From the NCBI RefSeq assembly GCF_016107395.1, contig NZ_JAAIKO010000008.1, positions 124,001 through 188,000 of the forward strand: a DNA stretch of 64,000 bases, written 5' to 3'. A program made the position numbers and the translations under genes. Under the pieces are notes generated by a model. The model saw nothing but the letters and a program-made list of their open reading frames with translations, had not been told where the DNA came from and made no database searches. Below are positions 1 through 59,631 of the stretch, in pieces. Position 1 is the stretch's first letter. Each line of letters opens with the position of its first letter. The DNA is from Streptomyces fildesensis. GTDB taxonomy: Bacteria; Actinomycetota; Actinomycetes; Streptomycetales; Streptomycetaceae.

Positions 1-3627
<3,627 letters not shown>

Positions 3628-3994
3628 TGCCTCACCTGGGAGCGCTGGGGAGTGGACAGGAGGGGGATGCTCCGGAGGCTGCTTGCGCCGGCGGGCGGCG
3701 GCGCGGCGGGCGGCTTCCTTGCGTGCTCCCGCTCTTTGTATCTGCTCCTGTGGACGTGTTCTCGCGTGCATGGCCGCTCCTGTCCGCGTTCACTCGGTTG
3801 GAGGGTCGGGCGAATGGCGGAGTCATGAGGGGGATGAAGTGACTCCGCATTGCCGGGAGCCTTCCCATTGGATGGCAGTCAAAAGCTCCCGGGAAGGGGT
3901 ACCGGTGCGTACTTTGCGGGGAGTTGGAGAAGCCGTCCGGCCCCGCAGGACGGGAGGGGCCGGACGGCTGGTCGGTGAATATGCCGGAGGACGG
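3628..3994. other. Intergenic region upstream of glgE
   Basis: This 367-base gap lies between the glgE start and the stop of the NmrA-type gene. Apart from the hairpin at 3931-3969 I see no gene. The open frames crossing it are low-complexity and lack good start sites. The glgE promoter should lie in the left half, but I cannot assign -10 and -35 boxes with confidence. Confidence 0.5.
3931..3969 (-). terminator. Terminator-like hairpin after the NmrA-type gene
   Basis: A perfect 14-bp inverted repeat (AGCCGTCCGGCCCC at 3931-3944 and its complement at 3956-3969) with an 11-base loop. It lies 26 bases beyond the stop of the minus-strand gene at 3995. There is no U-tract, as is common for Streptomyces hairpin terminators. 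Confidence 0.7.
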
Positions 3995-4912
3995 TCAGAG
4001 CGGGCGGCTGGACCAGGTCTGCCAGGGCTGCGCGGCCACCCAGCCGGCGATGGAGGTGAGCTTGATCCCCAGCCCCTGCTCGGCCTCCCGCGGGTCGCCG
4101 TCCATCAACCGCTCGTCCGTGCCCTCCGCCATGTAGTGGTAGATCCCGGCGACGCCGGCGGCCGCGTTCGGGCCGATGGCCTTGGCCAGCGCGGCCTCGA
4201 AGGCGGCGGGCGGCAGGGCCTGGTACGCGACGGGCCGGCCGAGGCCCTCGGCGAACGCGGCGGCGAGTTCGTTCCCGTCGACGGCCTGTCCGCCGCCGAT
4301 GTCCAGGACCCGGCCGTCGAGGCCGTCGTTGAAGAGCGCGGCGGCCACCGCGACCGCCAGGTCGTCGTGCGAGATCCAGGCGATCCGCCGGTCGGCCGGC
4401 AGCGGGTACGCGAGCACGCCCTCGTCGACCAGGGCCGGCCCGTTCCAGGGACTGAACAGGTTGTCGAGGTACACCGGTGGCCGCAGCACGACCAGCGGCA
4501 CACCGCAGTCCGCCAGCACCGCCTCGGCGATCCGGCGGGTCTCGAACGCGGCCACTCCGGCGGTGTCCGAGGGCACGCGGGTGTTCGCGTTGTACACGAT
4601 CCGGGTCACCCCGGATTCGAGCGCGGCCTCCGCGATGTGCATCGCATACGTCTCAATACGTAGGGGGTCGTACTCCAACGGCATGGTCACTACTGCGTGT
4701 GTGGCGCCCTTGAACGCCCACATCACGTCGTCCCGGCTACCGAGGTCACCGGCCACGAACGAGACCCCCGCGATGTCCGGGCGCGCTACGGCCGGCCGCC
4801 GCGTCAGGCTGCGGACCCGGTGCCCGCGTCCGGCGAGCAGCCGGGCCACGGCGCCCCCCTGGAAGCCGGTCGCTCCCACGACCAAGCAACGCTGGTGAAT
4901 CTCCTCCGACAT
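3995..4912 (-). CDS. NmrA-family NAD(P)-binding protein
   Basis: A 305-residue atypical short-chain dehydrogenase with a Rossmann fold. The N-terminal dinucleotide-binding loop reads VGATGFQG (about residues 12-19), followed by an Arg-rich SLTRRP segment suggesting NADP(H) preference. Members are either redox sensors without activity or NADPH-dependent reductases; I cannot tell which. The ATG at 4910-4912 has AAGGG about 11 bases upstream, so the ribosome site is weak. The gene is divergent from the AraC-type regulator at 5024, with a 111-base shared promoter region containing a small palindrome. It is probably controlled by that regulator (inference). A strong hairpin follows the stop. Confidence 0.8.
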   Translation of the reverse strand: MSEEIHQRCLVVGATGFQGGAVARLLAGRGHRVRSLTRRPAVARPDIAGVSFVAGDLGSRDDVMWAFKGATHAVVTMPLEYDPLRIETYAMHIAEAALESGVTRIVYNANTRVPSDTAGVAAFETRRIAEAVLADCGVPLVVLRPPVYLDNLFSPWNGPALVDEGVLAYPLPADRRIAWISHDDLAVAVAAALFNDGLDGRVLDIGGGQAVDGNELAAAFAEGLGRPVAYQALPPAAFEAALAKAIGPNAAAGVAGIYHYMAEGTDERLMDGDPREAEQGLGIKLTSIAGWVAAQPWQTWSSRPL

Positions 4913-4936
4913 CGGTGTGTCGCCCTTCGCTAGAAT

Positions 4937-4949
4937 GAATCAGCGATTC
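4937..4949. promoter_or_regulatory. Candidate operator between nmrA-type and araC-type genes
   Basis: A perfect 5-bp inverted repeat GAATC-AGC-GATTC in the 111-base divergent promoter region. It lies close to the minus-strand start at 4912, where a bound regulator could control either gene. It could also be chance. Confidence 0.35.
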
Positions 4950-5023
4950 CGCCTCACCTCAGGCTGGTCGGGGCGCACAGGGGCGGCAATAAGCAAACCG
5001 GGACGGGGATTAAGGGTTCGTCC

Positions 5024-5989
5024 ATGGAATCTGGCGGGAACGACCTCCTCAGCGAACTGCTCAGGCCACTGCGCCTGACCGGCGTGTTCGACAGCCTCTG
5101 GACGGTGCGGGCGCCCTGGGCGATCGAGGGGGACTCCGAGCAGAGCTGCGCGATCCTGCACTACATGGTCGAGGGCGACTGCTGGATCAGCGCGGGCGAC
5201 TGCCCGCCGATCCAGCTCCACCAGGGGGACTTGGCGGTCTTCCCCACCGGGACCGCGCACCGCCTCTCCGATCTGCCCGGCCGGCAGGGCGTCCCGCTCA
5301 GGGCGGTGCTCCCGGAGCGCGAACCCGGCACGTCAGGAGTGCTCGTCGTGGAGGGCACCGGCGAGCGGAGCCGCATCCTGTGCGCCGGACTGCACTACGA
5401 CGCGACGGCCGCGACCTCGCTGTACCGGGCGCTGCCGTGGTCGCTGGTGCTGGACCGGACGCAGGTCGACAAGGAACCGCTGCTGCGCGACACCCTCGCC
5501 TCGCTCGCCGCCGCCGAGCGGCGCGGCGAGCCGGGATCGCAACTCGTCACCCTGCGGGCGTTCGAGATGGCCTTCGTGCTGGCGCTGCGCCCGCTGCTGC
5601 GCGAGCTCTCCGACAACCCGGCCGTGCTGCCCGCGCTGCGTCACCCGGGCATCAGCAGGGCGCTCATCATCGTCTCCACCCGCTTCTCGGAACCGTGGAC
5701 GATCGAGGCGCTGGCCCGCGAGGTCGGCATGTCACGGTCGGCCTTCACCGCCACCTTCCGGGAGCTGGTGGGCGAGGCGCCGGCCCGGCATCTGACCGGG
5801 CGTCGGATGCAGGAGGCCGCCCGGCTGCTCACCGAGACGGCGGTTCCGCAGGCGGCCGTGCCGCCCCGCGTCGGCTACCAGAGCGCGGTCGGGTTCCATC
5901 TGGCGTTCCGCAAGTGGTTCGGGACAACGCCTGGTGAATACCGCGGCAACTGGCCGGTTCATAAACGGGACCGGCAGGACGTTCATTGA
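5024..5989 (+). CDS. AraC-family transcriptional regulator (cupin plus HTH)
   Basis: A 321-residue regulator. Residues 1-190 form an AraC-type cupin sensor domain: the HQGDLAVFPTGTAHRL segment is the typical cupin signature and probably binds a small ligand. Residues about 210-305 form the double helix-turn-helix DNA-binding domain, with EALAREVGMSRSAF as the first HTH and the family signature ending in FGTTPGEYR. It reads divergently from the NmrA-type gene and ends 61 bases before the HpaB-type gene. It is therefore a likely local activator of the nmrA-type gene, of cluster 1, or of both. Such AraC/NmrA divergent pairs are common in Streptomyces, so its link to cluster 1 is only inferred from position. 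Confidence 0.88.
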   Translation: MESGGNDLLSELLRPLRLTGVFDSLWTVRAPWAIEGDSEQSCAILHYMVEGDCWISAGDCPPIQLHQGDLAVFPTGTAHRLSDLPGRQGVPLRAVLPEREPGTSGVLVVEGTGERSRILCAGLHYDATAATSLYRALPWSLVLDRTQVDKEPLLRDTLASLAAAERRGEPGSQLVTLRAFEMAFVLALRPLLRELSDNPAVLPALRHPGISRALIIVSTRFSEPWTIEALAREVGMSRSAFTATFRELVGEAPARHLTGRRMQEAARLLTETAVPQAAVPPRVGYQSAVGFHLAFRKWFGTTPGEYRGNWPVHKRDRQDVH

Positions 5990-6012
5990 TTAGCACACGT
6001 GTATGAGGCAGT

Positions 6013-6045
6013 CTCTTCAACGGCGCGTCGAAGATCGTTGAGGAG
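6013..6045 (+). promoter_or_regulatory. Inverted repeat overlapping the ribosome-binding site of the HpaB-type gene
   Basis: CTCTTCAACG (6013-6022) and CGTTGAGGAG (6036-6045) form a 10-bp inverted repeat with one mismatch. The right arm contains GAGGAG, the Shine-Dalgarno sequence five bases before the GTG at 6051. It could be a regulator operator or an RNA hairpin that hides the ribosome site. Confidence 0.35.
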
Positions 6046-6050
6046 ACACG

Positions 6051-7508
6051 GTGACCAGGTCCGGCCAGGAGTACAAGGATTCGCTGCGAGACGGACGCGA
6101 GATATGGATCGACGGGGAGCGGGTCAAGGACATCACCCGCCACCCGGCCTTCCGCAACACCGTCGACTCCATCGCGGGACTGTACGACCTCTCCCACGAC
6201 TCCGCGCACTCCGCCGTACTCACTGAAGGCGGCGTCCACCGGGCCTTCCTGATACCCCGTTCGTACGAGGACCTGGTCGCCCGCCGAAAGGCGCACAAGG
6301 TGTGGGCAGAGGCGAGTTTCGGCTATCTCGGCCGCACTCCCGACTACATGGCGGCCGGGATCGCGGGCTTCGCGGCGGCGCCGGGGCTGTTCACCACGGA
6401 CACCTTCGACGGCGCTCCGAACGTCGCGGCATACCACCGGCGGATGTCGGAGGGCGATCTCTATCCGACGTTCACCATCACCAATCCGCAGATCGACCGG
6501 ACGAAGTCCGCGGCCGAGCAGGAGCGCGACGACCTCGTCGTCCGGGTGGTGGCGGAGCGCGACGGCGGCATCGTCGTCCGCGGCGCCAAGATGATCGGCA
6601 CCGCGGCGGTCTTCGGCAACGAGGTCCTCGTCGGCACCATCGAGCCGCTGGCCCCGCAGGACGTCGAGCACGCGCTGTGCTTCTCGATACCGGTCGACAC
6701 CCCCGGCCTGAAGTTCATCTCCCGCACCTCGTACGAGGCCCAGGCCCGCAGCGTCTTCGACAACCCGCTCTCCTCGCGCTTCGACGAGAACGATGCCCTG
6801 CTGGTCTGCGAGGACGTCTTCGTCCCGTGGGAGAACGTGCTCGCGTACCGCAACGTCGACGTCTGCTTCGGGCAGTGGTGGCAGACCCCCGCGTACGTGA
6901 ACTTCGTCCACCAGGCCGCCACCCGCTTCTGGACCAAGCTGGAGTTCCTCACCGGCGTCGCGATCCTGCTCGCCAAGGCCAACAACACCTACCAGCTGCC
7001 GCCGGTGCAGACCCAGATCGGCCGGCTGATGGGCTGGGTGGCGCAGGCCAGGTCGATGGTGCTGGCCGCCGAGGCCGGGTACGAGCAGGTCGACGGCGGA
7101 CGCGGCGGCGTGATGCCCGACAAGGAGATCTCCTACGCCCACCGGATCATGGCCGGTGACCTCTACCCCAGGGCGATCAGCGAGATCAAGCTGCTGGCCG
7201 GTGGCGGTGTCATCCAGCTCCCCGCCTCCGCGCAGGACCTGCTGCACCCGGAGATCGGCCCCGTCATCGCGAAGTACATCCGCTCGCCGGGACACCCGGC
7301 GCAGGACCGCGTCAAGCTGCTCAAGCTCGCCTGGGACGCGCTCGGCACGGAGTTCGCCGGACGGCACGAGCAGTACGAGCGCTTCTACCACGGCGCCCCG
7401 CACGTCTATCTGCTGCAGCAGGCGTGGGAGGGCGACACCGGTGCCTGCGAGAGCCTGGCCCGGACCTGCCTCGACGGGTACGAACTGCAGCCGCTGCCCC
7501 GGGCCTGA
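6051..7508 (+). CDS. HpaB-type flavin-dependent monooxygenase (4-hydroxyphenylacetate 3-hydroxylase family)
   Basis: A 485-residue large-component flavin monooxygenase of the HpaB/HpaH family, with an acyl-CoA-dehydrogenase-like fold. These enzymes use free FADH2 and O2 to hydroxylate phenols ortho to the OH group; relatives in biosynthetic clusters act on tyrosine or carrier-bound phenols. Family hallmarks are the TRSGQEYKDSLRDGR opening, DLVVRVVAERDGGIVVRGAK in the beta domain, and the conserved C-terminal helical half. The GTG at 6051 has GAGGAG five bases upstream. It is the first gene of a tight unit with the MFS, PrnB-like and PhzS-like genes. No partner flavin reductase is in the window, so a reductase must come from elsewhere. 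The substrate cannot be read from sequence. Confidence 0.9.
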   Translation: MTRSGQEYKDSLRDGREIWIDGERVKDITRHPAFRNTVDSIAGLYDLSHDSAHSAVLTEGGVHRAFLIPRSYEDLVARRKAHKVWAEASFGYLGRTPDYMAAGIAGFAAAPGLFTTDTFDGAPNVAAYHRRMSEGDLYPTFTITNPQIDRTKSAAEQERDDLVVRVVAERDGGIVVRGAKMIGTAAVFGNEVLVGTIEPLAPQDVEHALCFSIPVDTPGLKFISRTSYEAQARSVFDNPLSSRFDENDALLVCEDVFVPWENVLAYRNVDVCFGQWWQTPAYVNFVHQAATRFWTKLEFLTGVAILLAKANNTYQLPPVQTQIGRLMGWVAQARSMVLAAEAGYEQVDGGRGGVMPDKEISYAHRIMAGDLYPRAISEIKLLAGGGVIQLPASAQDLLHPEIGPVIAKYIRSPGHPAQDRVKLLKLAWDALGTEFAGRHEQYERFYHGAPHVYLLQQAWEGDTGACESLARTCLDGYELQPLPRA

Positions 7509-7512
7509 GGCG

Positions 7513-8955
7513 ATGGTGCATCGACGCGGCCTCGCGCTCGCCCTGCTGGCCTCGACCCAGCTCCTGCTGATCCTCGACACCGCGATCATCAACGTGGCGC
7601 TGCCCTCCATCGGCGCCGACCTCGGCACCGACGCCGCCGGCCTGTCCTGGGTCGCCAACGCGTACCTGATCACCTTCGGCGGCTTCCTGCTGCTGGCCGG
7701 CCGGGTCGCCGACCTCGTCGGCCACCGCCGGCTCTTCACGGCCGGACTGGCGCTGCTGTCCGCCGCCTCACTCGGCGGCGCCTTCGCCGGCGACAGCCGG
7801 CTGCTCGTCGCCGCCCGCGCCCTGCAAGGGGTCGGGGCGGCCTGCGCGGCCGCCGCGGCCTTCGCGCTGGTCCTGCTGCTCTTCGCCGAGGGACCCGAAC
7901 GGCACCGCGCCCTGGGCGTGTTCGCGGCGCTCGGGGGGCTGGGCGGCGCGCTGGGCACGGTGCTGGGCGGCGTCCTCACCTCCGGCCTCGGCTGGCGCTC
8001 CACGTTCGTCCTGAACGTTCTGGTGGGTGCGGCGCTCATCGCCCTGACACCGGCCGCGCTGGCCCCCGTCCTGGCCCGCCGTGAGCGGACCGCGGCGGCG
8101 CCCGGCGCCCTCCGGGACTTCGACCTCGGCGGCGCCCTCACCGCCACCGGCGGCCTCAGCCTGATCGCGTACGCGCTGGTCGACGCGGGTAGCGCGGGCT
8201 GGACCGACAGCGGCACCCTCCTCGCCGGAGCGGCCGGACTGGCCCTGCTGACGGCGTTCGCGGTCGTCGAGACCCGCGCCGCCCGTCCGCTGGTTCCGCC
8301 CGGTGTGCTCGGCCGGCCGGCGCTGCGGCTGGCCAACATCCTCAGCGCGCTGGCACAGATGGCGCTGTTCCCGATGTTCTTCCTCGTGAGCCTGTATCTG
8401 CAGAACGTCCTGGACTACGCACCGGTCACCGGCGGACTCGGACTGCTGCCGCTGTCGATCGTCGTCGTGCTGACCGCGCCGCAGACCGGACGGCTGGTCT
8501 CCCGCTTCGGACTGCGCCCGGTGATGACCTCCGGCTTCGCGCTGGTGGCCGCCGCCATGGTGTGGCTCGCGCTGTCGCTGTCGCCGGACGGATCCTTCGC
8601 CACGACGGTCCTCGCCCCCAGCCTGCTGATCGGGATCGGGCTGCCGCTGGTCATGGTGACCACCAACGTCGCCGCGACCGCGCAGGCCGGACCCGGCGAG
8701 ACCGGACTGGTGTCCGGACTGATCAACACCAGCCAGCAGTTCGGCTCCGTCCTCGGCCTCGCGGTACTCGTCGCGGTGGCCGCGGCGCACACCCGGACCG
8801 CGGGACCCGGAGCGGCCGCCGAAGCCGCCGGCTTCCGCACCGCGCTGCTCGCCGGCGCCGCCTTCGCCGCGGCCGCCACCCTCCTGACGCTGCTGCTGCG
8901 CAGCCCGTCGCGGGAGAAGGCCGACCCCACACCCAGCACACACACATCCCTGTGA
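7513..8955 (+). CDS. MFS drug-type exporter (DHA2/EmrB-QacA family)
   Basis: A 480-residue major facilitator membrane protein with about 14 hydrophobic helices. The first helix holds LDTAIINVALPSIGADL, a DHA2-family signature, and WVANAYLITFGGFLLLAGR with the cytoplasmic loop ADLVGHRRLF is motif A. It probably exports the product of the neighbouring biosynthetic genes or provides self-resistance (inference from position). The ATG at 7513 lies four bases after the upstream stop. The downstream PrnB-like gene begins at or just after its own stop, so the genes should be co-transcribed. A DHA2 exporter inside a four-gene oxidoreductase run is a typical mark of a small natural-product cluster. Confidence 0.92.
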   Translation: MVHRRGLALALLASTQLLLILDTAIINVALPSIGADLGTDAAGLSWVANAYLITFGGFLLLAGRVADLVGHRRLFTAGLALLSAASLGGAFAGDSRLLVAARALQGVGAACAAAAAFALVLLLFAEGPERHRALGVFAALGGLGGALGTVLGGVLTSGLGWRSTFVLNVLVGAALIALTPAALAPVLARRERTAAAPGALRDFDLGGALTATGGLSLIAYALVDAGSAGWTDSGTLLAGAAGLALLTAFAVVETRAARPLVPPGVLGRPALRLANILSALAQMALFPMFFLVSLYLQNVLDYAPVTGGLGLLPLSIVVVLTAPQTGRLVSRFGLRPVMTSGFALVAAAMVWLALSLSPDGSFATTVLAPSLLIGIGLPLVMVTTNVAATAQAGPGETGLVSGLINTSQQFGSVLGLAVLVAVAAAHTRTAGPGAAAEAAGFRTALLAGAAFAAAATLLTLLLRSPSREKADPTPSTHTSL

Positions 8956-8963
8956 CCCTCGGA

Positions 8964-10073
8964 ATGACGGTGCCCCACATGTCTGTGCTCCACGTGCTCC
9001 AAGGGCAAGAGCCCTATTACCGGATCGAGGAGATACGCGGTGTCGACCCGCTGGGAGCGGACGAGGCCTGCGAGAAGCTCCGCGTCATGAACGCGGACGG
9101 CGATGTGTCCGGCATGGTCACCGCGCTGCGCGAACTCCTTCCGGCCACCGACGTCCTGGACGACTTCTCCACCGTCGAGAACCTCGCGGCGATGCGGGAC
9201 CTGGGCATCTTCCTCGGCTCCGTCAAGCGGCACGGCACCGAGCCGCTCGACGCCGTACCGGAGGCGCTGCCGGTGCTGCGCGCGCTGGGCCGCCGTACCG
9301 GCATGGTGCCGCGGGACACCGTCCACCACTACACGGCCTGGAACCCGGTCGGCGCCCGCCAGCGCATGTACACCGGGGACCCCATGGAGGCCTGCCTCCA
9401 GGACGCCGTCCGGATGGTCTTCCCCAGCCTGTGCGCCTCGCTGGACGCCTGCTCGGAACTGGCCACCCTCGAACCCCACGACAGCCGCTTCTCGTCCTGC
9501 CTCGACCGGCTCGCCGGACTCGTCCAGGCCATGGTCGACTCGATCGACTTCACCATCGCCAACGTCTCACCGGTGTTCTTCGCCCGGGTCCTGCGCCCCT
9601 ACTTCGAGGAGATCACCCTCGACGGCCGCGAATACCTCGGCCCGGCGGCGGCCCAGGTCCCGCTCTGGCTGGTCGATCTGACCCTCTGGCAGTCCGACCG
9701 CAGCACCGGGCGGTACGAGTCCTTCCTCACCGAGTCGGTGCCCTACAGCCTCCCGGCCTGGCGTACCTTCCACGCGCGGTACCAGGGCAGCCCCTCCGCG
9801 GTGGGCAAGCTCTCCTTCGCGATCAGCTGGGAGGAGGCGGACCGGCTGCCGCCCACCCTGCGGGCGAGCGCCGTCGCGCTGGCGCGGGTGCTGCGCATCC
9901 TGAAGACCTTCCGGGCCCGGCACATCCGTATCGCCCGTGAGGCGTACAGCGACGAGGTGCGGCTGTACGACTACGGGAGCGGCGGCGCACCGGTCGAACT
10001 GCTGCGCTCCGTACTCGACCTGACCCGCGAGAACGAGACGCTGGTCCGGCGCTCCACCGAAGGGGAACGATGA
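8964..10073 (+). CDS. PrnB-family heme enzyme (monodechloroaminopyrrolnitrin synthase-like)
   Basis: About 369 residues, matching the PrnB family (DUF1864), whose fold resembles tryptophan/indoleamine 2,3-dioxygenases. Recognisable blocks are AMRDLGIFLGSVKRHGTEP, VARVLRPYF-type LRPYFEEI, YLGPAAAQVPLW and FRARHIRIAREAY. His320 in the last block corresponds by position to the proximal heme ligand of PrnB as I recall it. PrnB rearranges 7-chlorotryptophan in pyrrolnitrin synthesis; no halogenase is present here, so the substrate must differ. Starts are uncertain: ATG at 8964 is used, but a GTG at 8952 overlaps the MFS stop as GTGA, and an ATG at 8979 is also possible. Its stop overlaps the next gene's start (ATGA). 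Confidence 0.85.
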   Translation: MTVPHMSVLHVLQGQEPYYRIEEIRGVDPLGADEACEKLRVMNADGDVSGMVTALRELLPATDVLDDFSTVENLAAMRDLGIFLGSVKRHGTEPLDAVPEALPVLRALGRRTGMVPRDTVHHYTAWNPVGARQRMYTGDPMEACLQDAVRMVFPSLCASLDACSELATLEPHDSRFSSCLDRLAGLVQAMVDSIDFTIANVSPVFFARVLRPYFEEITLDGREYLGPAAAQVPLWLVDLTLWQSDRSTGRYESFLTESVPYSLPAWRTFHARYQGSPSAVGKLSFAISWEEADRLPPTLRASAVALARVLRILKTFRARHIRIAREAYSDEVRLYDYGSGGAPVELLRSVLDLTRENETLVRRSTEGER

Positions 10074-11371
10074 ACCGCATCGTCATCGCGGGAGGCGGCA
10101 TCGCCGGCCTCACCGCGGCACTCAGCCTGCACGCCGTCGGCCGCACCGACGTGATGGTCGTCGAGGCCGCCCCGGAGATCCAGCCGGTCGGCGCGGGACT
10201 CAACATCATGCCCAACGCGGTCCGTGAACTGGCGGCCCTGGGGCTGTACGAGGAACTGGCCGCCGTGTCGGTACCCACCAGCGAGCTGCGCTACTACCAC
10301 AGCAGCGGCAGCCTCGTCTGGCAGGAGCCGCGCGGCACCGGCGCCGGGTACCGCTGGCCGCAGCTGTCGATCCACCGCGGTCAGCTGCAGAACGTGCTGT
10401 CCCGCGCGGTCCGGGAACGGCTCGGCCGCGCGGCGGTCGTCTCCGGCGCCCGGGTGGACGACTTCACCGAGCTGCCCGGCGCCCAGCTGCGCGTCGCCAT
10501 CAGGGACCGGGCCAGCGGCGCCACCACCGACATCGGCGCGGAGATCCTGATCGGCGCGGACGGCATCCGCTCGGCGGTCCGCTCCGCCATGTACCCCGGC
10601 GAGGGCGAACCGCCGTGGAACGGCATGCTGGTCTGGCGCGGGGTGTCCTGGATGCCGGCCGACCGCGTCGGCACCTTCATGTTCATCGCGGGGAACAACC
10701 GGCAGAAGGCCGTCGTGTACCCGATGACGATTCCGGCCGCGCCCGGCGAGAAGGTGCTCGTCAACTGGGCGCTGGCGATGCCGGCGGAGCAGGACGGCGC
10801 CCCGGACCGCAGCGACTGGAACCGCCCGGTGCCCACCGCCAAGTTCCGCCACCACTACGAGGGCTGGGTCTTCGACGGGGTCGATGTCGGCGAGGTCGTC
10901 GATGCCGCCGAGGCCGCCTTCGAGTACCCGATGGTGGACCGTGAGCCGCTGGTGCGCTGGACCTTCGGCGGGGCGACGCTGATCGGCGACGCCGCCCACG
11001 CGATGTACCCGATCGGCTCGAACGGCGCCACCCAGTCGATCATCGACGGCCGCGCCCTGGCGCACGCGATGGCCGCCCACGAGGACCCCGCGCGGGCCCT
11101 GCTGGCCTACGAGGCGGAGCGCCGGCCGCCCATGACCGAACTGCAGCGCTCCAACCGCCGGCTGGGCCCGGAGGTGGTCATCAACATGGCCCACGAACGG
11201 GCCCCCGACGGCTTCACGGACATCCACGACGTGATCCCGCGCACCGAACTGGAGACGATCGCCAGGAGCTACGCCGTGGCCGGCGCGTTCGACCCGGCCA
11301 CGGTGAACCAGGGTTCCCCCTACGACGTCGGAGCTGTCCGCGCCGTCCAAGCCGTCCGGGCGGTGCGCTGA
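10070..11371 (+). CDS. FAD-dependent aromatic monooxygenase, PhzS-like
   Basis: A 433-residue single-component class A flavoprotein hydroxylase. The N-terminal Rossmann motif GGGIAGL (about residues 8-14) binds FAD, GADGIRSAVR is the DG motif, and LIGDAAHAMYPIGSNGA is the GD motif with the ribityl-binding region. The protein closely follows PhzS, the phenazine 1-hydroxylase, over most of its length, including HELRY-type SELRYYHSSG, SIHRGQLQ and YPMVDREPL. It hydroxylates, possibly with decarboxylation, an aromatic substrate using NAD(P)H and O2. It overlaps the PrnB-like gene by 4 bases (ATGA), so the products are probably made together. No phenazine core genes are in the window, so a phenazine substrate is not supported. 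Confidence 0.9.
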   Translation: MNRIVIAGGGIAGLTAALSLHAVGRTDVMVVEAAPEIQPVGAGLNIMPNAVRELAALGLYEELAAVSVPTSELRYYHSSGSLVWQEPRGTGAGYRWPQLSIHRGQLQNVLSRAVRERLGRAAVVSGARVDDFTELPGAQLRVAIRDRASGATTDIGAEILIGADGIRSAVRSAMYPGEGEPPWNGMLVWRGVSWMPADRVGTFMFIAGNNRQKAVVYPMTIPAAPGEKVLVNWALAMPAEQDGAPDRSDWNRPVPTAKFRHHYEGWVFDGVDVGEVVDAAEAAFEYPMVDREPLVRWTFGGATLIGDAAHAMYPIGSNGATQSIIDGRALAHAMAAHEDPARALLAYEAERRPPMTELQRSNRRLGPEVVINMAHERAPDGFTDIHDVIPRTELETIARSYAVAGAFDPATVNQGSPYDVGAVRAVQAVRAVR

Positions 11372-11396
11372 GCGGGTCGCGGGCGGGACGGGCGGC

Positions 11397-12026
11397 TCAG
11401 TCGAAGGAGAGCGAGCCCGTCCGCGTCCGCTTGAGCTCGAAGAAGTCCGGGTAGCCGGCCAGCGACCGGACGCCGTCGAAGACGCGGGCCGCCTCCTCGC
11501 CCCGGGGGATCGAGTTCAGCACCGGGCCGAAGAAGGCGACGCCGTCGACATGGATCGTCGGTGTGCCGACGTCGTCACCGACCGGGTCCATGCCCTCGTG
11601 GTGGCTCTTGCGCAGCGCTTCGTCGTACCGGGGATCGGTGGCCGCGGCGGCCACCTCGGCGGGCAGCCCCACCTCGGCCAGCGCCTCCTTGACGACGGTG
11701 TCGAAGTCCTCGCGGTTGCCGCCGTTGTGTATCCGGGTGCCCATGGCCGTGTACAGGTCCCGGAGCACACCCTCGCCGTGCTGCTCTGCGGCGGCGATCG
11801 CGACCCGCACCGGGCCGAGCGAGCGGTCCACCAGATCCCGGTACCACTCGGGCAGCTCGCGGCCCTCGTTCAGGACGAACAGGCTCATCACGCGGAAGCG
11901 CAGCTCGATGTCCCGCCGCTGCTCGACCTCGAGGATCCAGCGGGAGGTGATCCAGGCGAAAGGACAGGCGGGATCGAAGTAGAAGTCGACTTTCGCGGGC
12001 TGGACTTGGGAGGTAGGAGAGGTCAT
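11397..12026 (-). CDS. Mycothiol-dependent nitroreductase Rv2466c-family (DsbA-like) protein
   Basis: A 209-residue thioredoxin-fold protein with an inserted helical domain. The N-terminal [14 protein letters not shown] stretch holds a single active-site Cys (CPFA) in place of the CPWC of Mycobacterium Rv2466c, and the cis-Pro loop is GTPTIHVDG. The family uses mycothiol as electron donor to reduce disulfides or nitro compounds; the single Cys form may work by a monothiol route (inference). The gene converges on the PhzS-like gene, 25 bases away. The ATG at 12024-12026 has no Shine-Dalgarno sequence but a -10-like TAGCAT ends six bases upstream, suggesting leaderless translation. Confidence 0.85.
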
Positions 12027-12210: not shown

Positions 12211-14829
12211 GTGAAGGCAATCCGTCGTTTCACCGTGCGAACTGTCCTGCCGGAACCGCTGCGTCCGCTCGGCGAACTGGCACAGAATCTGCGCTGGTCC
12301 TGGCACCCGGAGTCCCGGGAGCTGTTCCAGACCGTCGACGAGGAGGGCTGGCGGGCCGCTGCCGGAGACCCGGTACGGCTGCTCGGCGCCGTCTCCAGGG
12401 AACGGCTCGAGGCCCTCGCCCAGGACCGCAGATTCCTGCGCCGTCTCTCCTCCGCCTCCGAGGACCTGACCGACTACCTCACCAATCCGCGCTGGTACCA
12501 GGGGCAGTCCTCCGAACTGCCCGCCGCCATCGCCTACTTCTCGCCCGAGTTCGGGATCACCGCGGCCCTGCCCCAGTACTCGGGCGGCCTCGGCATCCTG
12601 GCCGGGGACCACCTCAAGGCCGCCAGCGACCTCGGTGTGCCGCTGATCGGCGTCGGACTGCTCTACCGGCACGGCTACTTCCGCCAGAGCCTGTCCCGCG
12701 AGGGCTGGCAGCAGGAGCACTACCCGGTCCTCGACCCCAACGAGCTGCCGCTGAGCCTGCTGCGCGAGCAGGACGGCACCCCCGCCCACGTCGTCCTCGC
12801 CCTGCCCGGCGGCCGGTCGCTGACCGCCCACATCTGGAAGGCCCAGGTGGGCCGCGTCCCGCTGCTGCTCCTCGACTCCGACGTCGAGGAGAACCACCGC
12901 ACCGAACGCGATGTCACCGACCGCCTGTACGGCGGCGGCAGCGAGCACCGGCTGCTGCAGGAGATGCTGCTGGGCATCGGCGGGGTGCGCGCCGTGCGTG
13001 CGTACTGCCGGCTCACCGCGCACCCGGCCCCCGAGGTCTTCCACACCAACGAGGGCCACGCCGGATTCCTCGGCCTGGAGCGCATCCGCGAACTCGGCGG
13101 GGAAGGGCTCGCCTTCGACGCGGCCGTGGAGGCGGTACGGGCCGGCACGGTCTTCACCACCCACACGCCCGTCCCCGCCGGGATCGACCGCTTCGACCGC
13201 GAGCTGGTCGGGCAGCACCTCGGCGACGGCGGCGAACTGCCCGGTGTCGACATCCAGCGGGTGCTGGAGCTGGGCATGGAGACGTACTCCGGCGGTGACG
13301 CGAACGTCTTCAACATGGCGGTGATGGGGCTGCGGCTGGCCCAGCGCGCCAACGGCGTCTCCACCCTGCACGGCGCCGTCAGCCGGCAGATGTTCGCCGG
13401 GCTGTGGCCCGGGTTCGACGCCGACGAGGTGCCGATCGCCTCCATCACCAACGGGGTGCACGCCCCCACCTGGGTGGCCCCCGAGGTCTTCCGGCTCGGC
13501 GCCCGCCAGATCGGCGCGCAGCGCGCCGAGGACGCCCTGATGATCGGCGAGACCCAGCGCTGGGAACCCGTCGCCGAGATCCCGGACCCGGCCGTGTGGG
13601 AACTGCGCCGGGTGCTGCGCGAGCAGCTGGTGGAGGACGTACGGCGCCGGGTGCGTGCCTCCTGGCGGCAGCGCGGCGCCGGCCAGGCCGAGCTGGGCTG
13701 GGTCGACGGCGTCCTGGACCCCGACGTCCTGACCATCGGCTTCGCCCGCCGGGTCCCGTCCTACAAGCGGCTCACCCTGATGCTCCGCGACCAGGACCGG
13801 CTGATGGACCTGCTGCTGCACCCCGAGCGGCCGGTCCAGATCGTCGTCGCGGGCAAGGCCCACCCGGCGGACGACGGCGGCAAGCGGCTCGTCCAGGAAC
13901 TGGTGCGCTTCGCCGACGACCCGCGGGTCCGCCACCGCATCGTCTTCCTGCCCGACTACGACATGGGCATGGCCCAGCACCTCTACCCGGGCTGCGACGT
14001 CTGGCTCAACAACCCGCTGCGCCCGCTGGAGGCGTGCGGCACGTCAGGGATGAAGGCCGCCCTCAACGGCTGTCTCAACCTGTCCGTGCTCGACGGGTGG
14101 TGGGACGAGTGGTTCGACGGCAACAACGGCTGGGCCATTCCGACCGCGGATGGCTTCGCGGACGACGATCCCGACCGCCGGGACGACGTCGAGGCGGCGG
14201 CGCTCTACGACCTCGTCGAGAACCAGGTCGCCCCGCGCTTCTACGACCATGACGCGAACGGCCTGCCCGCCCGCTGGATCGAGATGGTCCGGCACACCCT
14301 GGTGACCCTGGGACCCAAGGTGCTCGCGGGACGTATGGTGCGCGACTACGTCGGGCAGCTCTACGCCCCGGCCGCCCTCGCGCACCGGGCCATCGCCGGC
14401 GACGCCGCCCGGGAACTCGCGGCCTGGAAGGCCCGGGTCCGCGGCGACTGGCACCGGGTCACCGTCGACCATGTGGAGACCGGCTCCGTGGGCGGATCCC
14501 CCGAGCTGGGCTCCACCCTGACCCTGCGGGTCCAGGTGACCCTCGGCGACCTCGACACCAGCGACGTCGACGTCCAGGTGCTGTCCGGGCGGGTGGACGA
14601 CGCCGACCGGATCTCCGACCCGGCGATCGTCTCCCTCAAGCCGTCCTCCCAGCCCGACATCGAGGGGCGCCGGCTGTACGAGGGTCCGCTCACCCTCGAC
14701 CGGCCCGGGCCCTTCGGCTACACCGTCCGTGTCCTGCCCACCCACCCGCTGCTCGCCGCCCCCGCGGAGCTCGGCCTCATCGCCACTCCCGCCGAATCCG
14801 AGGGTATGACGACGGGCATACTCCGCTGA
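12211..14829 (+). CDS. glgP: Alpha-glucan (glycogen) phosphorylase
   Basis: An 872-residue PLP-dependent GT35 enzyme that releases glucose-1-phosphate from alpha-1,4-glucans. It is of the short bacterial AgP type with an N-terminal helical domain and a C-terminal extension of beta character after about residue 730. IAYFSPEFGITAALPQYSGG and EACGTSGMKAALNG are family signatures; Lys615 in the latter is the PLP-binding lysine. The GTG at 12211 has TACCGT six bases upstream and no Shine-Dalgarno sequence, so it may be leaderless. In Streptomyces this gene is normally divergent from and adjacent to glgE; here about 8 kb of accessory genes separate them. A very strong hairpin follows. Confidence 0.95.
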   Translation: MKAIRRFTVRTVLPEPLRPLGELAQNLRWSWHPESRELFQTVDEEGWRAAAGDPVRLLGAVSRERLEALAQDRRFLRRLSSASEDLTDYLTNPRWYQGQSSELPAAIAYFSPEFGITAALPQYSGGLGILAGDHLKAASDLGVPLIGVGLLYRHGYFRQSLSREGWQQEHYPVLDPNELPLSLLREQDGTPAHVVLALPGGRSLTAHIWKAQVGRVPLLLLDSDVEENHRTERDVTDRLYGGGSEHRLLQEMLLGIGGVRAVRAYCRLTAHPAPEVFHTNEGHAGFLGLERIRELGGEGLAFDAAVEAVRAGTVFTTHTPVPAGIDRFDRELVGQHLGDGGELPGVDIQRVLELGMETYSGGDANVFNMAVMGLRLAQRANGVSTLHGAVSRQMFAGLWPGFDADEVPIASITNGVHAPTWVAPEVFRLGARQIGAQRAEDALMIGETQRWEPVAEIPDPAVWELRRVLREQLVEDVRRRVRASWRQRGAGQAELGWVDGVLDPDVLTIGFARRVPSYKRLTLMLRDQDRLMDLLLHPERPVQIVVAGKAHPADDGGKRLVQELVRFADDPRVRHRIVFLPDYDMGMAQHLYPGCDVWLNNPLRPLEACGTSGMKAALNGCLNLSVLDGWWDEWFDGNNGWAIPTADGFADDDPDRRDDVEAAALYDLVENQVAPRFYDHDANGLPARWIEMVRHTLVTLGPKVLAGRMVRDYVGQLYAPAALAHRAIAGDAARELAAWKARVRGDWHRVTVDHVETGSVGGSPELGSTLTLRVQVTLGDLDTSDVDVQVLSGRVDDADRISDPAIVSLKPSSQPDIEGRRLYEGPLTLDRPGPFGYTVRVLPTHPLLAAPAELGLIATPAESEGMTTGILR

Positions 14830-54529: not shown

Positions 54530-56284
54530 ATGAACAGCAGAAAAGCGACAGCGGTGCTGGCGCTTGCCACGGCTCTGGCCTTGGGAGCGTCCGCTTGCAG
54601 CAGCAGCGACAAGACCACCGACAAGGGAACGGGGACGAGCGCGGGTACCGACGCCGCCCTCACCCAGGTCGTCAACAAGAGTGACAAGGCCGGTGGGACG
54701 GTCTCGTACGAGCACTCCGACGTGCCCGACTCGCTCGACCCGGGGAACACCTACTACGGCTGGGTGCAGAACTTCTCCCGGCTGTACGGCCGCACGCTGG
54801 TCACCTTCAAGCCCGCCGCGGGCGCCGAGGGCCTGCAGATCGTCCCGGACCTCGCCACCGGTCTCGGCAAGGCCAGCGCCGACGCCAAGACCTGGACCTA
54901 CACGATCCGCAAGGACGTGAAGTACGAGGACGGCACCCTCGTCACCTCCAAGGACGTCAAGTACGCGATCGAGCGCAGCAACTTCGCGCCCGAGGCGCTG
55001 TCCAACGGCCCGACGTACTTCAAGGCGTACCTGGTCGGCGGCGACGCGTACAAGGGTCCGTACAAGGACAAGAGCCCCGGCGGGCTCGCGTCCATCGAGA
55101 CCCCGGACGACTCGACGATCGTCTTCCACCTGAGCAAGCCCTTCGCGGACTTCGACTACCTGGCGACGTTCTCGCAGACCGCACCCGTGCCGCAGGCCAA
55201 GGACACCGGCGCCCAGTACGTGAAGCACATCATGTCGACGGGCCCGTACAAGTTCGAGTCCTACGACGACGGCAAGAGCGCCGTCCTGGTGCGCAACCCG
55301 ATGTGGTCGAAGGCGATCGACCCGCTGCGTCCCGCGCTCCCGGACAAGATCACGATGAAGTTCAAGGTGAACGGCGTCACGATCGACAAGGACCTGCTGG
55401 CCGGCACCATCACGGTCGACGCGGCCGGCGCGGGTGTGCAGCCCGCGAGCCAGCCGTCGGTGCTGAGCGCGGCGAACAAGAAGAACACGGACAACTCGTA
55501 CGCGGGAGCCACGTCCTACGTGGCGCTGAACGTGAACGTGAAGCCGTTCGACAACCCGGACTGCCGTAAGGCGGTCCAGTGGGCGATCGACAAGACCTCG
55601 GTGCAGACCGCCGCGGGCGGCAATGTGAAGGGCGACGTCGCCACCACGCTGCTGCCGCCGTCGGTCAACGGCTACAGCAAGTTCGACCTGTACCCGACCC
55701 CGGGCAACAAGGGCGACACCACGAAGGCCAAGGCCGCGCTGACCGCCTGCGGCCAGCCCGGCGGCTTCACCACCAACCTGTCGGCGCGTTCCGACCGGGC
55801 CTCCGAGATGGCGGCGGCGACGGCGATCCAGAACTCGCTGAAGGCTGTCGGCATCACGGTCAACATCAAGAGCTTCCCGGCCGGTAAGTACTTCTCCAAC
55901 TTCGCGGGTGTCCCGGACTACGTCCACTCGCACGGCCTCGGCATGATGATGATGGCCTGGGGCGCCGACTGGCCGACCGGCTACGGCTTCCTCGACCAGA
56001 TCATCGACGGCAGCGCCATCAAGCCCTCGGGCGGCAACAACCTGATGGAGCTGAACGACCCGACGATCAACAAGGCCCTGTCGGACGCCATCGCGAACAC
56101 GGACAGCGCCGCCCGCACCAAGGCGTGGGGCGACATCGACAAGCTGACCATGGAGAACGCGTCCGTGGTGCCGCTGCTGTACCGCAAGAACCTGCTCTAC
56201 CGGCCGCCGTCCGCGACCAATGTCACGGTCACGCAGGCCTTCCTGGGCATGTACGACTACCTGCTGATCAGCTCCTCCAAGTAA
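54530..56284 (+). CDS. Oligopeptide-binding lipoprotein (OppA/DppA-like, SBP_bac_5)
   Basis: A 584-residue extracellular substrate-binding protein. A lipoprotein signal peptide ends with ALGASAC (Cys about residue 23). The SBP family 5 fold then follows, with SLDPGNTYYGW near the start and ADWPTGYGFLDQI near the end. It delivers peptides to the permease pair. The lipid anchor holds it to the outer face of the membrane. ATG at 54530; a hydrophilic Ser/Thr/Lys linker follows the Cys. Which peptides it binds is unknown, but the Streptomyces relatives take up nutrients or signals. Confidence 0.93.
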   Translation: MNSRKATAVLALATALALGASACSSSDKTTDKGTGTSAGTDAALTQVVNKSDKAGGTVSYEHSDVPDSLDPGNTYYGWVQNFSRLYGRTLVTFKPAAGAEGLQIVPDLATGLGKASADAKTWTYTIRKDVKYEDGTLVTSKDVKYAIERSNFAPEALSNGPTYFKAYLVGGDAYKGPYKDKSPGGLASIETPDDSTIVFHLSKPFADFDYLATFSQTAPVPQAKDTGAQYVKHIMSTGPYKFESYDDGKSAVLVRNPMWSKAIDPLRPALPDKITMKFKVNGVTIDKDLLAGTITVDAAGAGVQPASQPSVLSAANKKNTDNSYAGATSYVALNVNVKPFDNPDCRKAVQWAIDKTSVQTAAGGNVKGDVATTLLPPSVNGYSKFDLYPTPGNKGDTTKAKAALTACGQPGGFTTNLSARSDRASEMAAATAIQNSLKAVGITVNIKSFPAGKYFSNFAGVPDYVHSHGLGMMMMAWGADWPTGYGFLDQIIDGSAIKPSGGNNLMELNDPTINKALSDAIANTDSAARTKAWGDIDKLTMENASVVPLLYRKNLLYRPPSATNVTVTQAFLGMYDYLLISSSK

Positions 56285-56360
56285 TCGGAAGGCAGGTGAA
56301 GGCATCGGTGTCCGCCGGGCCGGGTGACCCCCGGCCCGGCGGGCCCGGCGCCGCACGGCT

Positions 56361-57371
56361 GTGACTGCGTACATCATTCGACGCGTGATCGCCGCTTTGC
56401 TGCTGCTGCTGGTCGTCAGCGCGGTCACATTCGCGATCTTCTTCCTTCTGCCGCGCCTCGGCGGGCAAACCACCACCCAGTTGGCCACCCAGTACGTCGG
56501 CAAGGACGCCAACCCCGAGAGCATCGCGGCGGTCAAGAAGAACCTCGGCTTCGACCTGCCGCTCTACGAGCAGTACTGGCACTTCATCAAGGCCATCGCC
56601 GTCGGGGCGAACTACAAGTTCGGCCCGGACGCGTCGGTCTGCCACGCGCCCTGCTTCGGCTACTCCTTCAAGAGCCACATCGAGGTGTGGCCCGAGCTGA
56701 AGTCCCGTATTCCGGTCACGTTGTCACTGGCCATCGGTGCCGCCGTGATCTGGGTGATCTCCGGGGTGGCCATCGGTGTGCTGTCGGCCCTCAAGCGCGG
56801 CTCGTTCTTCGACCGGTTGTCGATGGGTGTCGCGCTGGCCGGCGTCTCGCTGCCGACCTTCTTCACCGGAATGCTCGCGCTGGGCTTCTTCCAGTACAAC
56901 TGGCACATCTGGGACAACGTCCAGTTCGTGCCCATCTCCGACGATCCGTTCCAGTGGGCCTGGAACCTGGTCCTGCCCTGGTGCAGCCTGGCCTTCCTCT
57001 ACTCCGCCCTCTACGCGCGGCTCACCCGCGCCGGGATGCTGGAGACGATGGGCGAGGACTACATCCGCACCGCGCGGGCCAAGGGGCTGCGGGAGAGCAG
57101 GGTCGTCGCCAAACACGGGCTGCGGGCCGCACTCACCCCGATCGTCACGATCTTCGGCATGGACTTCGGTCTGCTGATCGGCGGCGCCGTCATCACCGAG
57201 AACGTCTTCTCCTTCAAGGGGATCGGCGCCTACGCTGTCGACGGGATCAGGGACAACGACCTGCCCATCGTGCTCGGCGTGACCATGGTCGCGGCCTTCT
57301 TCATCATCATGTGCAGTCTCCTGGTGGACCTGCTGTACGCCGCTATCGACCCCAGGGTGAGGTACTCGTGA
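56361..57371 (+). CDS. Oligopeptide ABC importer permease (OppB/DppB-like)
   Basis: A 336-residue inner-membrane permease with six helices. The N-terminal helix reads [15 protein letters not shown], and the EAA loop is [22 protein letters not shown]. It pairs with the OppC-like protein to form the membrane channel. A loop between helices one and two (about 45-105) holds two Cys (CHAPCF) that might form an extracellular disulfide. GTG at 56361; the stop overlaps the next gene's GTG as GTGA, so the permease and ATPase are co-translated. Confidence 0.93.
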
Positions 57372-58516
57372 GCACCGCCGGCAGCGATCCGCTGCGGAAG
57401 GACAGCGACCGCGACCCGTTGCGCAAGGAGGACGGGCCGGCTCCGAGTGCGGGGGCCACGGTCGGCGAGCCGGTGCTCACCGCCCGGCCGGACACCGCGG
57501 AGGCCTTCCTGGCGGTACGCGATCTGAAGATCCACTTCAATACCGACGACGGCCTCGTCCGGTCGGTCGACGGGATCAGCTTCGATCTCCAGCGCGGCCG
57601 GACGCTCGGCATCGTCGGGGAGTCCGGCTCCGGCAAGTCCGTGACCTCGCTGGGCATCATGGGCCTGCACCGCACCGCCAAGGCCAGGATCTCCGGCGAG
57701 GTGTGGCTGGACGGCGAGGAGCTGATCGGCGCAGACCCCGACCGGGTACGGCGGCTGCGCGGCATGAAGATGGCGATGATCTTCCAGGACCCGCTCTCGG
57801 CGATGCACCCCTACTACACGGTGGGCGCGCAGATCGTCGAGGCCTGCCGGGTGCACCAGGACGTCAGCAAGCAGGTCGCCCGCAAGCGGGCGATCGAGAT
57901 GCTGGACCGGGTCGGCATCCCCGAGCCGCACCAGCGGGTCGCCGACTATCCGCACCAGTTCTCCGGCGGTATGCGCCAGCGCGCGATGATCGCGATGGCG
58001 CTGGTCAACAACCCGGAACTGCTGATCGCCGACGAGCCGACGACCGCCCTGGACGTCACCGTGCAGGCGCAGATCCTGGACCTGATCCGGGACCTGCAGA
58101 AGGAGTTCGGCTCCGCGGTCATCATGATCACGCACGACCTGGGCGTGGTGGCGGAGCTCGCCGACGACCTGCTGGTGATGTACGCCGGCCGGTGCGTCGA
58201 GCGCGGTACGGCCGAGAAGGTCTTCACCGAACCGCAGCACCCGTACACCTGGGGCCTGCTGGGCTCCATGCCGCGCATGGACCGCGAGCGGACCGAACGG
58301 CTCAACCCGGTCAAGGGCGCCCCGCCCAGCCTGATCAACGTGCCGTCCGGCTGCGCCTTCCACCCGCGCTGCCCGTACGTCGGGCTCAACGGCGGTTCCA
58401 GCGAGACGATCGTGCCGGAGCTGCGGGAGACCGCGGCCGGGCACTGGTCGGCCTGCCACCTCGGCGAGCAGGACCGGGACCGGATCTGGACCGAAGAGAT
58501 TGCGCCCAAGCTGTGA
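57368..58516 (+). CDS. Oligopeptide ABC importer ATPase (OppD/DppD-like)
   Basis: A 382-residue cytoplasmic ATPase. An unusually long hydrophilic N-terminus of about 45 residues precedes the ATPase domain: GESGSGKSV (Walker A), [12 protein letters not shown] (signature), [12 protein letters not shown] (Walker B) and ITHDLGVV (switch His). The C-terminus has the oligopeptide-binding-protein-type CxxxCxxx cluster ([10 protein letters not shown]). It drives transport with the OppF-like partner. GTG at 57368 overlaps the permease stop. The DppD-type end may hold an Fe-S or metal site, as reported for some DppD proteins. Confidence 0.93.
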
Positions 58517-58527
58517 AGGACCAGGCC

Positions 58528-59631
58528 GTGCCTCAAGAAGACGTGAAGATCCCCCAGCAGTCCACCGCGGGGGCGGAGCCCCTGCTCAGGGTCACCGGCC
58601 TGGTCAAGCACTTCCCGATCACCAAGGGAATGCTGCGCCGGCAGGTCGGCGCGGTGCAGGCGGTCGACGGGATCGACCTGCAGGTGGCGGCGGGCCAGAC
58701 GCTCGGCGTGGTGGGGGAGTCGGGCTGCGGCAAGTCCACCATGGGCCGGCTGATCACCCGGCTGCTCGAACCCACCGGCGGGAAGATCGAGTTCCAGGGC
58801 CGTGACATCACCCATCTGAGCGTGGGGGAGATGCGACCGCTGCGCCGCGATGTGCAGATGATCTTCCAGGACCCCTACTCCTCGCTCAATCCGCGGCACA
58901 CCATCGGCACCATCGTCGGAGCGCCGTTCAAGCTCCAGAAGGTGGCGACGGAGTCGGGCGTGAAGAAGGAGGTGCAGAACCTCCTGGAGCTGGTCGGCCT
59001 CAACCCCGAGCACTACAACCGCTATCCGCACGAGTTCTCCGGCGGGCAGCGGCAGCGCATCGGGATCGCGCGGGCGCTCGCCCTCAAGCCGAAGCTGGTC
59101 GTCGCGGACGAGCCGGTCTCGGCGCTGGACGTCTCCATCCAGGCGCAGGTGGTCAATCTGCTGGACGACCTGCAGAGCGAGCTCGGGCTGACGTACGTGA
59201 TCATCGCGCACGACCTGTCCGTCATCCGGCACGTCTCGGACCGGATCGCGGTGATGTACCTCGGCAAGGTCGTCGAGGTGGCGGACCGCGAGGCGCTCTA
59301 CGGGCAGCCGATGCATCCGTACACCAACGCGCTGCTGTCGGCGGTGCCGGTGCCGGACCCGAAGCGGCGTACCGCGCGGCAGCGGATCCTGCTGACCGGC
59401 GATGTGCCGTCGCCGATCAACCCGCCGTCCGGCTGCCGCTTCCACACCCGGTGCTGGAAGGCGACCGAGGTGTGCTCCACGCAGGAGCCGCCGCTGATCG
59501 CGCTCGCCACGGGACACGAGGTGGCGTGCCACCACCCGGAGAACGCTCCGGCGAAGGCCCAGGAGAAGAACGCCCAGGGGAAGGGCGCGGAGAACGGCCC
59601 GGCGATCGGTAATCAGCCAACTGACCTTTAG
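58528..59631 (+). CDS. Oligopeptide ABC importer ATPase (OppF/DppF-like)
   Basis: A 367-residue ATPase partner of Opp[12 protein letters not shown] is Walker [16 protein letters not shown] the signature, [11 protein letters not shown] Walker B and IAHDLSVI the switch. The C-terminal CRFHTRCW matches the OppF-type cysteine cluster, and the last 40 residues are Ala/Glu/Lys-rich and disordered-looking. GTG at 58528 was chosen because AAGGA lies seven bases upstream; a GTG at 58513 overlaps the OppD stop as GTGA and is an alternative. Last gene of the operon, followed by a palindromic hairpin. Confidence 0.93.

Follow-up and report, generated by a model that had tools for sequence, protein, structure and literature searches.

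A conserved orphan cassette in Streptomyces with a PrnB-family haem enzyme, most likely oxidising tryptophan

The gene cassette and its chromosomal site

The window analysed here is a stretch of 64,000 nucleotides from Streptomyces fildesensis. It carries a compact group of oxidative genes between two flanks whose names, glgE and glgP, are our own reading. The features are as follows.

1642-3771, flank read as glgE
3995..4912, minus strand, NmrA-type NAD(P)H-binding reductase, divergent partner gene (PF05368, E 9.1e-26)
5024..5989, plus strand, AraC-family regulator with a Cupin_6 domain (PF12852, E 2e-38; PF12833, E 5.3e-20)
6051..7508, plus strand, HpaB-type FADH2-dependent oxygenase, GTG start (PF11794, E 3.5e-90; PF03241, E 1.2e-54)
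7513..8955, plus strand, MFS exporter, DHA2/EmrB-like (PF07690, E 4.3e-47)
8964..10073, plus strand, PrnB-family His-ligated haem enzyme (PF08933, E 7.4e-35)
10070..11371, plus strand, PhzS-like group A flavin monooxygenase, FMO (PF01494, FAD_binding_3, E 1.2e-22)
12211-14829, flank read as glgP

The HpaB, MFS, PrnB and FMO genes lie on the same strand and their four open reading frames are intact. HpaB and MFS are spaced by 4 nt, MFS and PrnB by 8 nt, and the FMO start is located on the PrnB stop in a 4-nt ATGA overlap. The Pfam matches and this spacing bear out an earlier note on this DNA, which had described four co-directional genes at 6051-11371 that overlap or nearly do so. A profile search found no halogenase, NRPS, PKS or flavin reductase among these four genes, as the note had also stated. 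The lack of a flavin reductase in the unit carries little weight, because eight PF01613 matches are found elsewhere in the host genome, none of them on the cassette contig. PF08933 has a single match in the host genome. The four genes are real, but the unit had been drawn too small. The AraC gene, which ends 61 nt before the HpaB start, and the divergent NmrA gene had been missed, and each is present in 65 of the best 80 of 99 related loci. The unit is composed of six genes, NmrA, AraC/cupin, HpaB, MFS, PrnB and FMO.

The interval between FMO and glgP contains a further gene on the minus strand (11397-12026) for an Rv2466c-like mycothiol-dependent nitroreductase (PF22234, E 1.6e-88). This gene is present in the window and in L008/L080 and in no other of the best 80 of 99 loci. 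With an occurrence of 1/80 in that set and its absence from the nearest relative, L011, it is ruled out as a member of the unit. Farther along the window, at 54554-59631 on the plus strand, an ordinary oligopeptide-type ABC transporter (solute-binding protein, permease and two ATPases) precedes a gene for a peptidase M1 (59724-61142).

PF08933 is present in 6/35 genomes of the genus and 41/394 of the family; in a sample of the order it is present in 32/293 genomes, with the matches again within the same family. Around the 41 loci of the family sample (window left out) tblastn found FMO in 21, HpaB in 17 and glgP in 16, and all 17 loci with HpaB near PrnB also have FMO. The remaining PrnB-family loci of this sample have quite different neighbourhoods. 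Among named genomes we found 99 PrnB relatives and analysed the best 80; since these were chosen for their similarity to the window PrnB, counts in them are not an unbiased fraction. FMO is found in 75 of these 80 loci, HpaB in 61, MFS in 59 and glgP in 51. The FMO gene follows PrnB directly (start less than 400 nt from the PrnB match) in 74 of them. The neighbourhood search for the HpaB/PrnB/PhzS trio that the note had proposed recovers it in 60 of the best 80 of 99 loci, 46 of these 60 with glgP. Seventeen of the 80 loci end at contig ends, and absences there are not losses, because the loci are interrupted. Since HpaB, FMO and the trio recur near PrnB across relatives, the grouping is not due to chance. 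The six genes have dN/dS values of 0.02-0.28 (window versus its four nearest relatives in the genus). Relatives of the cassette are also found in other actinomycetes and in a betaproteobacterium.

In Streptomyces glgE and glgP bracket the fixed site of the cassette, whose carriers include S. chryseus and S. exfoliatus. Among the 35 genus genomes the glgE-glgP gap measures 253-729 bp in 27, 1.7-4.7 kb in three and 7.7-8.4 kb in the five that hold the cassette. The gaps of intermediate size belong to G029 (C1:2884596-2889280, 4.7 kb, no PrnB match) and to G009 and G013 (1.7 kb each), and possibly hold other cargo or remnants. The cassette is also subject to decay. The MFS gene is absent from 7/41 full-length glg-site loci (L102, L105, L110, L113, L120, L121, L128), HpaB from L105 and L128, and FMO from L103, and in L040 only PrnB remains. 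From these losses it follows that the unit is dispensable, as is often the case in specialised metabolism.

The PrnB-family, PhzS-like and HpaB-type enzymes

The PrnB-family protein scores 120.9 bits against PF08933 (curated cut-off 27), and its nearest PDB sequence is 2v7i, a PrnB (E 2.4e-63). In the alignment to 2v7i, His313, Tyr321 and Ser332 of P. fluorescens PrnB correspond to window His320 (the axial haem ligand), Tyr328 and Ser339, which are kept in 79, 80 and 79 of the 80 relatives (best 80 of 99). In L128 both the axial His and the Ser are lost. Tyr123, kept in 80/80 of the same relatives, aligns with Tyr104 of FbPrnB, a residue described as narrowing the pocket (PMC11791213). According to the same description Ser319 and Gly210/Gly211 of FbPrnB contact the substrate carboxylate (PMC11791213). 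Ser319 corresponds to window Ser339, and Gly210/Gly211 are replaced by Ala229/Ala230 in the window PrnB; the offset of 20 in the construct numbering is our own deduction. The AlphaFold2 model has a mean pLDDT of 72.5, and its quality is low in the Ser339 loop (330-341). A Foldseek search with this model ranks PrnB crystal structures in the top 12 places (E to 1.1e-18, TM about 0.73-0.77 by query), followed by SO4414 and IDO. A viral copy of PrnB has no support, as a scan of viral contigs with the single PrnB query gave no relative.

The FMO finds its best PDB match in 2rgj/3c96 (E 2.5e-84, residues 4-365 aligned), which we take to be PhzS of pyocyanin biosynthesis, and it exceeds the cut-off of NF005720 (518.5 bits, cut-off 400). 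Both FAD motifs, GGGIAG (GxGxxG) and GDAAH, are present, and GDAAH is kept in 74/74 related FMO matches that cover this stretch. The FMO matches of L088, L112, L126 and L151 have one stop each. Unlike PhzS, the cassette FMO is paired with PrnB, and the cassette proteins and window ORFs that were scanned include no phenazine genes. A halogenase is ruled out for the FMO, since its weak match to Pfam Trp_halogenase spans only residues 3-66, the FAD-binding end. The best PDB matches of the NmrA protein are 5f5l/5f5n (E 1.7e-25), entries named 'Monooxygenase' and presumably KstA11 of kosinostatin biosynthesis, which acts in a quinone-modifying step. The MFS protein reaches 191.6 bits against TIGR00711, under the cut-off of 230.2.

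The HpaB-type assignment of the note holds with regard to the domains, since HpaB_N (PF11794) and HpaB (PF03241) are both over their cut-offs; the active-site His of ordinary HpaBs, however, is replaced by Phe. The nearest PDB sequences (300 bits) are two-component FADH2 hydroxylases of the HpaB/SgcC type (4oo2, 6b1b, 2yyg), which share with the cassette enzyme both domains and Arg95. The protein stays below the equivalog cut-offs of TIGR02309 (328.1 vs 480.2 bits) and TIGR02310 (328.5 vs 885.2). Phe141 is positioned where all five PDB HpaB-type sequences in the comparison have His, the residue (T. thermophilus His142, E. coli His155) that we take to serve the phenol substrate. The cassette alignment has 68 rows from 87 loci, with four genomes represented twice. 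In all 67 rows that cover the site the residue is Phe; Arg95 is likewise found in 67/67, and residue 99 is Tyr in 56 and Cys in 11. The 28 non-cassette controls, from which L187 was left out as it has no HpaB match, have His at this position in 23 cases, Pro in three, Tyr and Ser in one each, and Phe in none. In the tree the cassette HpaBs form a single clade of their own with support 100/100, and thus the replacement of His by Phe is one inherited change and not 67 events. As far as the aligned sequences go, this change is a new observation, and the altered active site makes this HpaB subfamily a new enzyme target.

Related clusters and the supply of tryptophan

Several relatives carry additional genes. 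Among the best 80 of 99 loci, ketosynthase-type (KAS) genes are found in 16, DsbA-like genes in 13, TrpC and TrpD in 10 each and TrpG and TrpE in 9 each. The expanded clusters L133-L137 and L139-L141 have two FMO genes and also hold ketosynthase-type, DsbA-like and trp genes; most of them possess a berberine-bridge-type oxidase as well. Their hosts include Plantactinospora, S. coelicoflavus, Actinokineospora, Kitasatospora aureofaciens and S. parvulus. L144, L147 and L152 resemble them without trp genes, and L150 (S. iconiensis) is a compact cluster at a different site. In Crenobacter oryzisoli (L143) the cassette is complete, with 44-54% identity over its six genes. Two Aquabacterium loci hold PrnB, FMO, AraC, NmrA and TrpE/G/D/C and no HpaB. 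There (L138, L142; families scanned on L138) PrnB-FMO adjoins a UbiA-type prenyltransferase gene and a dehydroquinate-synthase-type gene beside the trp genes, and the predicted product is possibly a prenylated relative of the cassette product. In Glycomyces (L153, L155; families scanned on L153) PrnB-FMO is followed by flavin reductase, DoxX-like, KS and KASIII genes; an 84-aa ORF beside PrnB-FMO may be a carrier protein.

In the PrnB tree (64 rows, with the L081-L128, L131, L151 set thinned to one locus in four) the glg-site clade (100/99) is sister to a proteobacterial clade (100/97), and both fall into one group (99/97) with the expanded relatives, termed type B. Four FMO-less loci are nested inside type B. 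L036 and L037, which rank highest among the Pfam hits of the family sample, lay outside the first PrnB collection and were unmatched by its queries; their PF08933 matches (L012, L013) fell far outside in the tree. The clusters with trp genes belong to type B and to part of the proteobacterial sister clade, and no glg-site cassette among the best 80 of 99 loci has trp genes.

S. parvulus TrpD and TrpC as well as Aquabacterium TrpD and TrpE score over the curated NCBIfam cut-offs; the TrpE-like protein of S. parvulus (351 bits vs 517.7) is under every curated TrpE cut-off shown. A second TrpD is found elsewhere in 8/8 genomes tested whose cluster holds trpD, and thus the cluster copies look dedicated. 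In G112 and G431 the match to the second TrpD contains one stop. Crenobacter, with a cluster that lacks trpD, has only one TrpD in its genome. The earlier note had proposed the oxidation of a free aromatic amino acid, either tyrosine or tryptophan. The general proposal is supported, and between the two tryptophan is favoured by the extra trp genes of related clusters and by the Trp-binding positions that PrnB has kept, so that it is the likely precursor. The note had further put forward three successive oxidations and export, which, like the order of steps, are predictions here. Tyrosine is set aside on account of the trp genes.

A proposed pathway and its alternatives

We consider the locus to be a real and conserved orphan cassette, most likely for the oxidation of tryptophan, and a variant of PrnB-based biosynthesis. 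In the best explanation, to which we assign a probability of roughly 0.5, it is a small biosynthetic cassette that makes a tryptophan-derived metabolite with PrnB, FMO, HpaB, NmrA, MFS and AraC. Gene content, gene order and conservation are observed, and so are the genes for tryptophan supply in relatives, the haem and substrate positions that PrnB has kept and the replacement of His by Phe in HpaB. In the following scheme we infer that PrnB rearranges the ring, in which order the enzymes act, that a quinone results and that the product is exported. Free L-tryptophan would be bound by PrnB on its His-ligated haem. PrnB might then perform the oxidative ring rearrangement of the pyrrolnitrin pathway on this unchlorinated substrate and yield a compound of the 3-(2-aminophenyl)pyrrole type; for this step in particular the chances seem about even. 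The PhzS-like FMO, co-translated with PrnB, and HpaB would hydroxylate this compound, probably to a hydroquinone or quinone. HpaB would receive FADH2 from a reductase encoded elsewhere in the genome, the NmrA-type reductase may maintain the redox balance, the MFS protein would export the product and the AraC/cupin protein would regulate the unit. A compound of the proposed kind, 3-(2'-aminophenyl)pyrrole, has been reported from a marine gliding bacterium as a natural product (PMC2630848). In a Corynebacterium expressing prnB, putative monodechloroaminopyrrolnitrin went along with less growth, for which the authors blame toxicity (PMC11112847). A need for export would fit with such toxicity, although the absence of the MFS gene from 7/41 full-length glg-site loci means that export by this protein is not strictly required. 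Besides these MFS losses, several observations weigh against the scheme, namely Ala229/Ala230 at the FbPrnB glycine pair, the glg-site cassettes being free of trp genes among the best 80 of 99 loci, the low score of the S. parvulus TrpE-like protein and the low model quality around Ser339.

The comparison with pyrrolnitrin biosynthesis (prnABCD) shows both likeness and difference. Both systems have a PrnB-family haem enzyme, inferred here to act on tryptophan, and neither has an NRPS or PKS. However, the halogenases PrnA and PrnC as well as PrnD are absent from the seven genes at 3995-12026, and the cassette has HpaB-type, PhzS-like, NmrA, MFS and AraC genes instead.

PrnB might also oxygenate tryptophan without rearrangement to hydroxytryptophan or an oxindole, which HpaB and FMO would turn into an indolequinone-type pigment. 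Precedents come from the His-ligated haem tryptophan monooxygenases MarE and the bacterial tryptophan hydroxylases (PMC11904535, PMC12921851), and the paenidepsin PrnB homologue is proposed, untried, as an indole hydroxylase (PMC13036774). Nevertheless, the closest solved structures by sequence and fold are PrnBs, far ahead of IDO. Furthermore, a hydroxyindole substrate fits less well with an HpaB that has lost the His presumed to serve phenols, and on balance we regard this course as rather doubtful. A catabolic or detoxification module, in which an aromatic N-compound is taken up, broken down and expelled by the MFS pump, would be in keeping with the AraC regulator, the efflux-type MFS and the two monooxygenases, all usual in such modules, and with the catabolic members known in the HpaB and PhzS-like families. 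Genes for anthranilate and tryptophan biosynthesis inside related clusters, the ketosynthase-type genes in 16 of the best 80 of 99 loci and the KS, KASIII and flavin reductase genes beside PrnB-FMO in Glycomyces make a breakdown pathway very improbable.

The cassette could also belong to an already described compound published under other gene names, for example a mansouramycin-like quinone. Mansouramycin of S. albus Del14 is described as built from tryptophan and oxidised, as in our best reading, and its cluster as left unannotated by antiSMASH (PMC12690601). Its reported neighbours are genes for an ATP-grasp ligase and for an MFS protein (PMC12892944), which would set it apart, since the cassette has no ATP-grasp counterpart; nor is there an S. 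albidoflavus record among the best 80 of 99 loci. The open-licence literature searched contained no description of the HpaB/PrnB/PhzS trio or of the cluster, nor of a pathway with the same four genes. An already described product appears unlikely.

Returning to the ring rearrangement by PrnB, a wider and more tentative proposal would be that a PrnB-FMO core makes a widespread class of unchlorinated phenylpyrrole metabolites in actinomycetes and proteobacteria. The glg-site cassette might then be the minimal six-gene form, the His-to-Phe change of HpaB might serve this scaffold, and the FMO might be the partner that purified PrnB lacks. The chemistry of PrnB is an open problem. In the published account the enzyme works in vivo but showed no activity in vitro, where some cellular component is suspected to be missing (PMC11791213). 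A cassette in which an FMO nearly always follows PrnB provides a well-delimited system for this chemistry, with the FMO as a candidate partner. It also points to a new compound class in many Streptomyces, and a cassette this compact and without NRPS or PKS may escape cluster-finding software, as reported for mansouramycin. The PF08933 family includes a distant branch as well (L060, L066, L069, L070, L071), whose members neighbour GHMP-kinase-type and methyltransferase genes, joined in those loci that were scanned by HAD and PLP-decarboxylase-type genes; by its gene neighbours it reads as a putative further orphan pathway.
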